Shown in pieces: positions 4,901-28,900 of a DNA stretch of 64,000 nt. Numbering within the stretch: position 1 is the stretch's first letter; the number at the start of each line of letters is the position of its first letter. Both the position numbers and the translations under genes were made by a program. Source of the DNA: Ophiura sarsii. Its lineage: Eukaryota; Echinodermata; Ophiuroidea; Amphilepidida; Ophiuridae. Location: assembly GCA_035610835.1 (NCBI GenBank), contig CM069454.1, positions 62,106,580-62,170,579 of the forward strand, written 5' to 3'. The notes below the pieces were generated by a model. The model did no database searches. It saw only the letters and a list, made by a program, of their open reading frames with translations, and had not been told where the DNA came from.

Positions 4901-7900
4901 AACATCTGTGTCCGTCCATGACGCTAACAAATTTCCGTCTGTGACACAGTTTGTTACAGGTCTACCCTTCTCCTGTAAAAATAAATCTGTTTTCAAATGC
5001 TGTGTATCAAACCATGTATCTCACTTACTATTTGACCTGGAAAGCTTGAGGAATATGGAATTGTTTAAATAGAAATTGAGAAGAAGTACTAAAGGTCCGG
5101 GGAACCCTATTTCTATCTTGTCCGTAGTGTTGGAAAAATACTAATATCTTGACTGCTTTTTATTACTAAGACTGAAAATTCATGACTTAACATTTTTCTT
5201 ACTATTTTGTAAGTATTTGATACCATTTTTTCATATGAAAGTGTAAATAAGTGGCAATTTCAAAGTTTTTTATGTAGTTAACATTTGTGTCCGTCCGTGA
5301 CGCTCAAAAATGTCCGTCCGTGACAAAGTTTGTTGCCCTACCCCTGTAAAAAATAAGAAATATTTTAAAATGCTGTGTATCAGATATTCAAACCATATAT
5401 CTTACTTACTATTTGACCTGGAAAGCATATGGGAATATGGAGTTGACTAGATAGAAATTAAAAAGAAGCACTAAAAGGTAGAGAACCCTATTTCTATCTA
5501 GTCCGTCTGTGACACAAACATTTCCGTCGTTCTATTTTTAGTAACAAACCACATCTTATTTTTTTTTTGTGTATTTCAATAAAGTTGATGATTCTCTATA
5601 ACATTAAACATAAAAAGTTGAATAAATGTCAGTAGTTACTTTTTACAAACTGTTTTTCGCTCATGTTTTGCACAAACGTCCGTCCGTGACAAACCGATCA
5701 GCCTCATATCTCTTTTTTTTTCTTCCCCACTTAACACTCACCAGGCCACGCAAAAATCCGGCCGGCCGCTAAAATCCATCTCCCAGCGTCTAAAAGCCAA
5801 GGAGGGTCGTATCCGTGGTAACCTTATGGGTAAGCGTGTGGACTTCTCGGCGCGTGCTGTCATCACGCCCGATCCAAACTTGTCCATCGACCAAGTCGGC
5901 GTGCCCAGAACAATCGCTCAGAACTTGACCTATCCAGAAATTGTGACAGCCTTCAACATAGATAAGTAAGTAAATTGGGTACACATCAGGGGTTATAGTA
6001 ATCATTTGCATATGTTATGCTAGATTTATACAGAGTAACAATGTTATCAAAATTCTCAAAGAAGATTTCTTGTGCAGTCCAGAAATGAAGTGGTAAACCA
6101 GACTTCCTGAAGCCCAAAAATGCTGTCGGATAACCTAGATTTCAATGCAGGTTATCCGGCGGATGACCATACTTTTTAAACATTTGTACTGTAGTAACTT
6201 TGGCAGACAACCAATAACATTGGTAGATAACTTGATTTTATAACATGGTTAGTCGCTGGAAAACATCATATTTTTTCGTTGAACACTGGCTGCAGGTCAT
6301 CATTTCCACCCTATAATACACTGAGCCAAAAAAGAAACTTATAAAATCAAGTTCCTGATGGTAGCCTGGGGAACATTGTTACATTCTTCCTGTAGTGCTG
6401 CAATAAGTGTTTGTCTATTGACAGGTGGATTGTCTCTTCTTGATATGCGTCATCCCAGGCTACCATCAGGAACTTGATTGGAAGCATGAGAAGAAGATGC
6501 ACAGCCTGCATGCAAGCTGGAGGTGGACATACCCGTTATTAATGACTTCATTGTTTGTTTGGATATGAGTTTGTTTTGACCCTATGAAATGTTTTTAACT
6601 TTATGTCGCTGAAATTGTTTGCTGTGACCTGTGATAGACCTGCAAGACGTTGTCTGAGTCAGTGCACATTTCTCTTGTGTCATTGAAGCAAACAATTGGT
6701 TATTGACTGCCATTTGAAGCAATACATTGCAGTAATATTGTATCCAAATTTGGTACATTTTCATGCACAGAATTTTATTTGGTGATCTGTTAAAATGTAT
6801 AAGTTTCTTTTTTGGCTCAGTGTACATGGTACAGATAGGCATAACTTCATAAATAAGTTAAATCTCAACTTGAATGTGCACTAGTGTTATGAAAAAATAA
6901 AGGGTCTTTAAGAAGAATAAGAGAGGACTGAATTTAAGTCACATCAATTGTACTTCTGGCAGCAGGATTTTAACAACACTATATGCCTTTCATTGCAATG
7001 TAATGTCAAAAGGACCAGTGACAGAAACCAGTGGTCATGGGATGAAAGTGAAGCATGCTGGACTGTACAAGAAATCTTATTTGCAAAATTCTAACCCTAA
7101 TAACTACATAATATTGTTTCGTTTACAGACTTCAAGAGTTAGTGCGGAGGGGAAATAATCAGTATCCAGGTGCTAAGTACATCATACGAGACAATGGTGA
7201 GAGAGTGGACTTGAGATTCCACCCTAGGACTAGCGATCTGCATTTGCAGTGTGGCTATAAGGTAATATTTTACTGTATGTGTACTGTCGCGTCAAAAGGG
7301 TGCAGTTGTCGGTAAAATGTATTTCAAGATATTGATGGAATTAGGCATGGAAAAACAAAGAAAATAAAGATAATTTTACAGTAATTTTTCTTCATAAAAC
7401 CAGAAAGCAGTATCCAATCTTAACCACAAAGGTGTCATTTTGAAGCATTCATTAAGCTCCTTTTAATGGTTATAAGATATGAGATTCTTTGAGAGACAAC
7501 TGCATCCTTTTGCCGCGGCTGTAGGGGGGATCCTTGAATGAATAAGTTGTAGGAAAAAGAGAAGAAAAAAAAGTTCCTTCCTACTTGCAAAGCACCAATC
7601 CAATGATGAAAAAATCGTCTCTTTTTGAGCTCATCTATGATAATTAATTTTACTCCAATTTTTTCCTGAGGATTGGTGGATATCTATGTTAGCAATAGGA
7701 TAGGACTATGACAGTATTCAAATTCAAAAACATCAAAGACCTGAGAAGTGCTTGAATTGCTTGCTATGCACATGCACACATAAATTAGTTTTAAAAAAGC
7801 AAATATTTTGGTAAACGTCATGTTTTGACTCAGTGTGAATTTTGGAGGTGGAATCACTGAACATAATTGCAGGATGCACGGGTAAGTCTGCTTATTGAGA

Positions 7901-25900: not shown

Positions 25901-28900
25901 CAAGATGGAAGATGATGTGTTCTTAAGATGCATTGAGTCCAACATGTTGACAGACATGACACTACAGGGTATTGAGCAGATTGCTAAGGTAAGTAAACAC
26001 CCGGGAACCAATTTCATCATACCTCAAATCTCCCAGCGACATTTTGGGACCCGAAATCTGGATCACATGGACTGCATTCTTAAATCTAGTCGACCAGTAC
26101 CGCTTTGGAGATTAGTGGTGCTAATATTCATCCAGGGATTTTCATATCAAACAATTCGTTCGGCAGTCAAATTGAGAGGGGTTATTTCACGAAAAATGGT
26201 TCATACTTTCAATGCAGATTTCAACTTAATGGGCAACTTTTGGATTTGACATACCCGCAAATGTTATTCAGAATGTTTCAATCTACCGAAAAATGCAGAA
26301 CGTTCTTTGTTTTCCGAGCAATTTTTGTACTCTCATGCAATGTTCTATATAAATGCTTGTGCCAGTGTTTGTTTATCAATTTAAAGGTGGGAATTTGAAT
26401 CAAATGGGAAGTTTCTGTAAGTTTAAATTTGAAAATATTTCAATTAATGCTCATTTTGTCATTATTTCCTATCTTCAATCATGATATTTTCTGCTTCATT
26501 TCTCTCATTTTTATTTTTTCTCCTTCAAAGCTTACCAAATTACCCACGATCTTACAAAATGTGCCGGGAACCAGGCGGCCCAGTTCCCCTTTTTCCTCCT
26601 TCAAATCTTACCAAATTAGCTGCGATCTTACCAAATTTGCCGGGAACCAAACGGCCCAGTTCCCTTCTTTTTCCCCCTGCCATGATAACCTATGACATGT
26701 TCAAGTCACATTCATAAGAAGGTCGTATGGCAACCTATTTTTATCATGACCCACTCTAATCTGTTACCTATGTCTATTGTACCCTACAGGTTTACATGCA
26801 TCTTCCTAGAGAAGAGAACAAGAAGCGTATCATCATCACCGAGGAGGGTGAATTCAAAGGCATCCAAGAATGGATCCTGGAAACGGACGGCACCTGTCTC
26901 ATGAAAGTGCTCAGCGACCCCGAGGTGGATCCCATCCGTACCTTCTCCAACGACATCTGCGAGATATTCCAGGTGCTGGGCATCGAGGCCGTGCGTAAGT
27001 CTGTGGAGCGCGAGATGAACCATGTGATCTCGTTTGATGGCTCCTATGTGAACTACCGTCACCTGGCGTTGTTGTGCGACGTCATGACAGCCAGGGGTCA
27101 TCTTATGGCCATCACTCGTCACGGTATCAACAGACAGGATGTAGGGTGCCTCATGAGATGCTCCTTTGAGGAGACGGTAAGTTTTTTTCAAGTTATTGCT
27201 CTCTTAGTCTTTGTAATTTATTGTACATCTTGGGTTAATATTCTCTTCCCACCCCAAAAATGTATCAATTGCATGCCATATATTGTCCTGAAAATGCAGG
27301 GGTAGAATTTCTCCGCGAATCGATTCGCGTGAAGATTCGCGCAAAATCACTACCGCGTGAATCCAGGTGGATTCGCGCGCAAAAAAAAATAAAAATCTCA
27401 GGACCTAAGATGACTGGTATTTGACCCTTAATCAACAAACATGCCGAATTTGGAAGTTGTGCAATCTTATAGCCATATTCTTTATATTATTTTCATTAAT
27501 TTCGCAATAATCCATAGATTCTCAAAATTGGCGAGAATCCATGGATTCTTGCAAAATCCCTCCGCGAGAATCCGAGCAGATTCTCGCGGTTGGTTACGAA
27601 ATTCTACCCCTGAAATGTAAAGTGCAGTGACAGAAAAAAAATATCTAAGAACTGTTTTTCCAAGACAGAGTAACCCATAACCTATATTTTTGGAAAATGA
27701 GATTTTTTAAAATTAAGAATACATTTTTGACCCATCTTAAAATTTAAGGTCAGGCTCATCAAAAACTGAAAATCTGCAGAGATGCATTGAAAGCTTCACC
27801 ACAGTCCAATGATGAAAAAAATAAACACAATTTGAGTTTATCATCGATGAAAAACAATTTATACTCCAATTTTTTCCTGAGGACTTTGTGGAATTCTCTT
27901 TGTATAGCTTTGTATGAAATATTGAAAAGTTGAGGGGAGTCCATTTTGATTCTTGCAATTTTGTTAAGGAGAATCTTTGTGAGAATGGATTCTCAGATTC
28001 TTGCTGAAATTCTGATCCTGATATTTGATATATTTTGTAAACGCCAGATAGACAGAAAATTATGTCACCAGCCGCCGACTGATTATTTATTACTCGTTTA
28101 AAAATTAATAATTCACAGAGGCAATAACTTCTTAGGATTGTTTAATTTTACAACTAAAATAAATAAATTTGTTGTATACCAGTTTGACGAATGAAACCAG
28201 GTAATACCAATTTCTCATTTACAACATCTGCAGAAAACATTTCAATAGACTCAGCAATTCTATGACTATGCCTTGGCCCTATGGCATAAAAGTTACAACT
28301 AATCTTAAGTGAACTTAGGAAGAGTGGTTACCAACTCTTTTTAAGCCTGGTTAAGAATAACATATTTAATAGTTTCTCTGAAGTTGAACTCCATGAAGAA
28401 TAACATGGTTCTGAAATTAGACCAGAGGCCTATATCTACAAAATCTCATTTTCCAAAGATATAGGTTATTAAAATAACCCCATATCTTTGGAAAATGATA
28501 TTTTTTAAAAATTAAGAATACATTTTTGACCCAACTTAAAATTTAAGGTCAGGCTCATCAAAAACTGAAAATCTGCAGAGATCAAAGTCTTATTTTAGGA
28601 ACATGTCTGCAAGACATTAATTAATTCCAATCATTGCAATTAATCTGATTGATTCACACTCCAAAGTTGGATAGTCCTGGCTTTCTTTCAATCAGCTCTT
28701 TTGCTAACCTGTGACTTCTAACCTCTATCCACCCACCCAAGTGTGTAAGGAGGGTCCTCTCCTACCTGCATTGATAATGTAAACTGAGGGTGAAGAACTG
28801 AAGATTACAAATAAAACTTGACATGCACAGATATAGATGTCGGACATCTTTTTTGCTACCACATGGATTCCTTTCATCAATCAGTATTTGCACCAATTGT

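Follow-up and report, generated by a model that had tools for sequence, protein, structure and literature searches.

Eight same-guide box C/D snoRNA candidates in the introns of the RPB1 gene of Ophiura sarsii and their predicted target in 18S rRNA

Introduction

Why would a gene for a subunit of RNA polymerase II carry eight copies of one small element, each in an intron of its own, and what might such elements do? The question is raised by a stretch of 64,000 nucleotides of the brittle star Ophiura sarsii (C14:62106580-62170579, hereafter the window; GC 0.369), part of an assembly of 1,573,662,873 bases in 748 contigs, in which lies much of the gene for RPB1, the largest subunit of RNA polymerase II. 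A preliminary description of this stretch, made from its letters alone, had proposed a family of intron-encoded box C/D small nucleolar RNAs (snoRNAs). Here we examine the anatomy, distribution, possible target and origin of the eight elements, and find that they are very probably paralogous intron-encoded box C/D snoRNA genes, predicted to guide one 2'-O-methylation in 18S ribosomal RNA (rRNA), two triplets among them having come from the duplication of intron segments.

Results

Eight intronic elements with the anatomy of box C/D snoRNAs

Reading the sequence placed eight elements at the sites given in the preliminary description, on the sense strand of RPB1 and in eight different introns (Table 1), and bore out the shared C box, D box, closing stem and identical guide that it had reported for all of them. 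In each element an exact RTGATGA C box is accompanied by a CTGA D box lying directly against the closing stem. The 20-nt block of guide and D box, TACTCCAATTTTTTCCTGAG (the ACTCCAATTTTTTC block of the elements), is identical in all eight and forms the longest invariant run among the columns of the family (20/87), a length reached in 2 of 100000 column shuffles. With up to 4 substitutions allowed, TACTCCAATTTTTTCCTGAG has no further site in the window on either strand. At the place of the D' box all eight elements have TTGA, one mismatch from CUGA, and the stretch 5' of D' is not conserved, differing between the groups into which the elements fall.

To place these counts against chance, the whole window was scanned for RTGATGA followed 40-109 nt later by CTGA, with a closing stem of 5 bp or more that had to start at most 2 nt from the C box and at most 1 nt from the D box. 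The scan returned eight matches on the + strand, exactly e1-e8, and none on the - strand, while 60 Markov-shuffled versions of the + strand window gave a mean of 0.18 matches and a maximum of 1. Given such short C and D boxes in an A/T-rich window, one might read the elements as chance C/D-like motifs, or as conserved intronic splicing enhancers, with no RNA gene involved. Set against eight matches where 0.18 are expected, together with the compensatory stem changes and the flush 15-16 bp match to rRNA described below, that reading is scarcely credible. Eight elements placed randomly by intron length would fall in eight different introns with P = 0.057, so that the one-per-intron layout is unremarkable by itself.

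Table 1. Positions (in the window) of the eight elements, their host gene and the repeated intronic blocks
Feature	Position	Strand	Details
e1, C/D element	7594..7680	+	intron 2 (7262-8462); C 7603-7609, D' 7625-7628, C' 7637-7643, guide 7650-7665, D 7666-7669
e2, C/D element	9773..9858	+	intron 4 (9482-11126); C 9783-9789, guide 9829-9844, D 9845-9848
e3, C/D element	12185..12270	+	intron 5 (11337-12402); C 12195-12201, guide 12241-12256, D 12257-12260
e4, C/D element	14539..14624	+	intron 7 (13643-15234); C 14549-14555, guide 14595-14610, D 14611-14614
e5, C/D element	17499..17584	+	intron 9 (17002-18033); C 17509-17515, guide 17555-17570, D 17571-17574
e6, C/D element	19266..19358	+	intron 10 (18140-20068); C 19276-19282, guide 19328-19343, D 19344-19347; 2-nt bulge in closing stem
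e7, C/D element	23813..23904	+	intron 12 (21033-24274); C 23823-23829, guide 23874-23889, D 23890-23893; 2-nt bulge in closing stem
e8, C/D element	27799..27891	+	intron 15 (27177-29300); C 27809-27815, guide 27861-27876, D 27877-27880; 2-nt bulge in closing stem
RPB1 (RNA polymerase II largest subunit), host gene, part in window	5741..33621	+	16 modelled exons ~5741 to 29487, CTD frame up to 33621
Intronic block with e3	12057..12361	+	again at 14410-14715 (90%, with e4); part 12123-12291 at 17437-17605 (92%, with e5)
Intronic block with e6	19249..19890	+	again at 27782-28436 (86%, with e8); piece 19198-19384 at 23743-23930 (94%, with e7)

The closing stem shows two-sided changes

The inner five pairs of the closing stem are formed in all 40 cells of the alignment (five pairs in eight elements), and two of the five are changed on both sides between elements (A-U/G-C and C-G/U-A), giving 5 covarying cells, a value reached in none of 500 shuffles. 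When the partner was shifted by one column as a control, 45-47.5% of cells were paired and no two-sided change was seen. Extended to nine pairs, the stem is paired in 84.7% of 72 cells and contains 10 covarying cells (0/500 shuffles); because the 2-nt bulge of e6-e8 lies in the outer pairs, the register there is doubtful and the outer five of these ten cells are unsafe. The eight rows moreover represent only three groups, so that the stem covariation amounts to about two events. The closing stem is part of the minimum-energy fold in all eight copies.

The exact copies found in the genome are confined to RPB1

A model built from the family scores the eight elements at 95.6-111.9 bits and has no convincing match elsewhere in the window, in the 20 kb upstream of it or in the 10 kb downstream (best match outside the window 16.9 bits), in agreement with the earlier observation that no copies follow downstream of the array. 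One match within the window (52073-52144, + strand, 22.5 bits) was set aside, since higher scores, up to 28 bits, are obtained with some of the elements read on their reverse strand.

Across the genome, where match counts may be lower bounds, a DNA search of the 1.57 Gb with e1 found 8 places, all within RPB1, and the exact 20-mer TACTCCAATTTTTTCCTGAG was found 8 times, again all in RPB1 and in one orientation. With up to 2 mismatches, 12 places were found, consisting of the 8 exact ones in RPB1 and 4 two-mismatch sites elsewhere (3 on the + strand, 1 on the - strand); in total these are 11 forward and 1 reverse, versus 10 and 5 for a backwards control, and none of the four outside loci scores above 19.9 bits with the family model. 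Eight alike copies within 20 kb might suggest a short interspersed element or another mobile repeat that resembles a C/D snoRNA, and the preliminary description had named dispersal of the unit in random orientations as the mark of a transposon. The exact copies found all lie in RPB1 and on one strand, which argues against a dispersed transposon and leaves the snoRNA reading standing, and the four outside matches stay within the 15 that the backwards control gave. We therefore consider a mobile repeat highly improbable.

The guide is complementary to 18S rRNA of the same genome

A box C/D snoRNA directs methylation to the target base opposite its fifth nucleotide, counted from the D box. The guide directly 5' of the D box of the eight elements reads AUACUCCAAUUUUUUC, and its reverse complement, GAAAAAATTGGAGT, was written down as the expected target before any rRNA of the genome was examined; it resembles a stretch that we take to be common to animal 18S rRNA, GAAAAAAUUAGAGUG. 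A first search of the genome, with a piece of 18S, found three places, two of which (on C1 and C728) contain the target region and read CTTTGAAAAAATTGGAGTGTTCAAAGC. A second search from the target region found 5 places, three of them with an intact and identical site (those on C1 and C728 and a new one on C1), while of the other two one is diverged (L032) and one has no match to the approximate pattern (L031). No intact rDNA unit was among the places returned by these two 18S searches.

The guide pairs with 18S GAAAAAAUUGGAGUGU at offset 0 from the D box, with 15 Watson-Crick pairs and 1 G-U pair in seven of the eight elements and with 14 and 1 in e1. When the 18-nt guide of e1 was shuffled 2000 times and compared with the 1194-nt 18S piece on C1, the maximum was 13 Watson-Crick pairs, reached once. 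The intact 18S sites carry GGAG, as the CC of the guide requires, where human 18S has AGAG. The guide matches a base that differs from human, possibly a small case of guide-target co-evolution.

From this pairing, the fourth A in the A6 run of 18S GAAAAAAUUGGAGUG / GAAAAAAUUGGAG is predicted to be 2'-O-methylated; this adenosine, which presumably corresponds to about human A811, is a concrete candidate 18S methylation site in an invertebrate animal. By our placement this site would fall between chicken C-757 (human C797 according to the source) and G-825, and the 83 guide C/D RNAs listed for chicken include none with an 18S target between these two positions (PMC2653536).

An alternative role for the same pairing would be to assist the folding or processing of 18S rRNA, as a chaperone, instead of guiding its methylation. 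The C/D snoRNA U14 provides a precedent for such a role. A long duplex (15-16 bp) and an amplified copy number would suit a chaperone whose action depends on dose, and the chicken list has no guide for the predicted site (PMC2653536). The position of the duplex, however, is that of a methylation guide, since pairing begins with the nucleotide directly 5' of the D box, and the present length falls within the 9-21 nt spanned by antisense elements in chicken (PMC2653536). We accordingly judge a chaperone role instead of methylation to be unlikely.

Other candidate targets were tried and rejected. U6 snRNA of the same genome offers either a 9-bp match starting three nucleotides off the D box or 7 Watson-Crick and 2 G-U pairs at offset 0, and U2 snRNA of the same genome offers at most 7 mixed pairs at offsets 0-5. 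With the stretches 5' of D', no more than 9 mixed pairs form against 18S or U2, and these stretches vary between groups; judged from these alignments, the D' stretch is probably no guide. The U2 snRNA genes themselves form a tandem array at C3:43406980-43451851, with a spacing that is often 612 bases and with 41 of the 46 listed U2 matches.

Duplication of intron segments accounts for two triplets

In their order along the gene the elements fall into three groups, e1-e2, e3-e4-e5 and e6-e7-e8. Within the second, e3 and e4 share 306 bases at 90% identity, and e4 and e5 share 163 bases at 96%; within the third, 673 aligned bases are common to e6 and e8 (86%) and 189 bases to e6 and e7 (94%). Because flanks are shared within both triplets, we conclude that intron segments with an element inside were copied between introns of RPB1, and the triplets provide an example of intron-segment copying within one gene.

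Pairwise differences are fewer in the elements than in their flanks, with 8/252 sites versus 18/216 for e3-e5 and 2/276 versus 10/129 for e6-e8, in counts where the pairwise sites are not independent, gaps are left uncounted and the flank lengths were chosen by us. The smaller change of the elements, combined with the invariant run of guide and D box, points to selection on the guide, a reading to be taken with caution, as gene conversion is also possible.

Alternatively, the copies may be snoRNA genes of which one or a few are expressed, the others being young duplicates turning into pseudogenes. Not every annotated snoRNA gene is expressed, according to PMC8178906, and the triplets are young, with e6-e8 differing at 0-1 of 92 aligned sites (gaps uncounted). 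The C box, D box, closing stem and guide are nevertheless intact in all eight elements, and despite many changes between groups outside the boxes the block of guide and D box is identical throughout, which argues that at least one copy per group has been selected or homogenised. We regard partial decay of the array as a serious possibility, though not the likelier one.

The host gene and its repeats

The identity of the host is supported by the match of its translated exons to RPB1 of many animals (among the best 120 of 7967 matches), by the match of exon 6 to RPB1 chains of the PDB (E about 1e-78) and by the YSPTSPS tail, which is read in frame at 32428-33621. The first modelled exon has an approximate start, with 5' exons lying upstream of the window, and the splice donors of exons 11, 13 and 15, after 20274, 24622 and 27176, were read directly. 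The elements occupy 8 of the 15 introns modelled in this part of the gene.

Several other repeats were observed in RPB1. Exon 14 and its splice donor are repeated head to tail at 25488-26000, in about five copies of a 99-base unit, with the acceptor in the first copy and an in-frame stop in one of the copies. The 3' end of exon 7 and its splice donor recur as a 75-base copy (91%) directly behind the original at 13668-13742, in the intron of e4, and three copies of a 107-base unit (the later ones 95% and 76% identical to the first) stand close behind e2 at 9889-10209. A 21-base tandem repeat of more than 10 units fills much of intron 6 (12877-13190), and intron 13 contains a tRNA-like match at 24876-24948 (26.7 bits, slightly below the Rfam gathering score of 29).

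Discussion

A model for the array and the points that weigh against it

These results strongly support the box C/D snoRNA reading put forward in the preliminary description, and add to it a target in the 18S rRNA of the same genome. In the model that we propose, each of the eight RPB1 introns would yield its snoRNA, of which about 86-93 nt would be shielded from exonucleases by the C/D k-turn together with a closing stem of up to 9 bp. In a particle with fibrillarin, Nop56, Nop58 and 15.5K, AUACUCCAAUUUUUUC would then pair with 18S GAAAAAAUUGGAGUGU and direct 2'-O-methylation at the fourth A. The triplets e3-e5 and e6-e8 arose by duplication of intron segments inside RPB1, and, as the guide is the same in all copies, such growth would raise the dose of one guide RNA and not diversify its targets. 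If the RNAs are expressed, it becomes possible to ask whether guide dose or host splicing was the object of selective amplification.

Several observations weigh against this model. The C'-like motif has 1 mismatch to RTGATGA in two elements and 2 mismatches in the other six, and matches with 2 mismatches are weak evidence. Covariation aside, the number of changed inner pairs in the closing stem is unexceptional (187/500 shuffles reach 2), as is the count of further pair types (500/500), and single strands of the elements fold weakly better than shuffled ones (z -0.36 to -2.49). At Rfam gathering thresholds there are no matches in the window. Below threshold, in favor of the model, every match lying over an element on the + strand is to a C/D family, but these matches scatter over many families and name none (best 33.3 bits versus a gathering score of 55). 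With regard to the target, partial matches are favored by a T-rich guide, and the 18S copies examined are interrupted or partial, although separately placed copies agree. The match between e1 and e2 is confined to the element (87 bases at 85%, with no common flank), so that the copying route can be traced for the triplets and not for this pair. Finally, the elements lie 133-1409 nt from their 3' splice sites. Vertebrate intronic C/D snoRNAs have an optimum at 70-80 nt from this site, for which a long stem may compensate; in the present case release might rely on the closing stem or intron turnover instead of a fixed distance to the splice site.

The preliminary description had further suggested that the layout couples a guide RNA to the expression of a polymerase II subunit, an attractive suggestion that does not go beyond inference. 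The hosting of snoRNAs is widespread among housekeeping genes, some of which carry more than one copy of a family. In its strongest form, the suggestion would make RPB1 in this lineage the sole and amplified origin of a guide RNA whose 18S methylation vertebrates lack. The output of guide would follow the transcription and splicing of RPB1, and the assembly of particles on eight introns could slow or tune RPB1 splicing, thereby linking the supply of polymerase II to ribosome modification. We think it distinctly improbable that this form holds.

Comparison with known snoRNA families and hosts

Among known C/D families, SNORD36 (RF00049), snoZ196 (RF00134) and SNORD72 (RF00577) match the elements below threshold through the common frame of C box, D box and stem, with 27.6, 33.3 and 32 bits against gathering scores of 30, 55 and 43. 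The guide of SNORD36 pairs with 18S GUUAAAAAGCUCG, a site other than the target of the RPB1 array, and identity with SNORD36 (U36) was dropped on account of this different 18S stretch and of the Rfam score. With regard to hosts with many snoRNAs, gas5-like and UHG carry different snoRNAs in non-coding genes; the RPB1 array shares with them the many introns with one C/D snoRNA each, and differs in that it consists of one family in a coding gene. The gas5-like gene is described as a snoRNA hotspot in the chicken survey (PMC2653536).

In published surveys, a layout with several copies of a C/D snoRNA within one gene is common (PMC8178906, PMC2653536), one snoRNA per intron is the predominant rule (PMC11028025), and intragenic (cis) duplication is the main route to C/D paralogs in chicken (PMC2653536). 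Given these precedents, the layout of the array is in itself ordinary. Multi-copy hosts in chicken include HSPA8, with U14 in introns 5, 6 and 8, RPL17 with U58-like copies and RPL4 with U18 (PMC2653536), and vertebrate families of this kind have in common with the present elements the RNA anatomy, the recurrence of one snoRNA across introns of a single gene and the sense orientation. In the chicken table, a host contains at most 4 isoforms of one C/D snoRNA (GGgCD57, in EST BU281079), compared with eight here, in a different host and with another target; among its named hosts none is a subunit of RNA polymerase II, several hosts being given by clone or EST names alone (PMC2653536). The statement in the preliminary description that POLR2A is unreported as a multi-copy snoRNA host is not contradicted by the titles and opening lines of abstracts of the open-access papers that searches for such a host returned, which mention none.

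What looks new is thus the RPB1 host, the number of eight copies and, probably, the 18S target site. RPB1 thereby joins the likely snoRNA hosts, with more copies of a single guide per coding gene than any host in the chicken table (PMC2653536).

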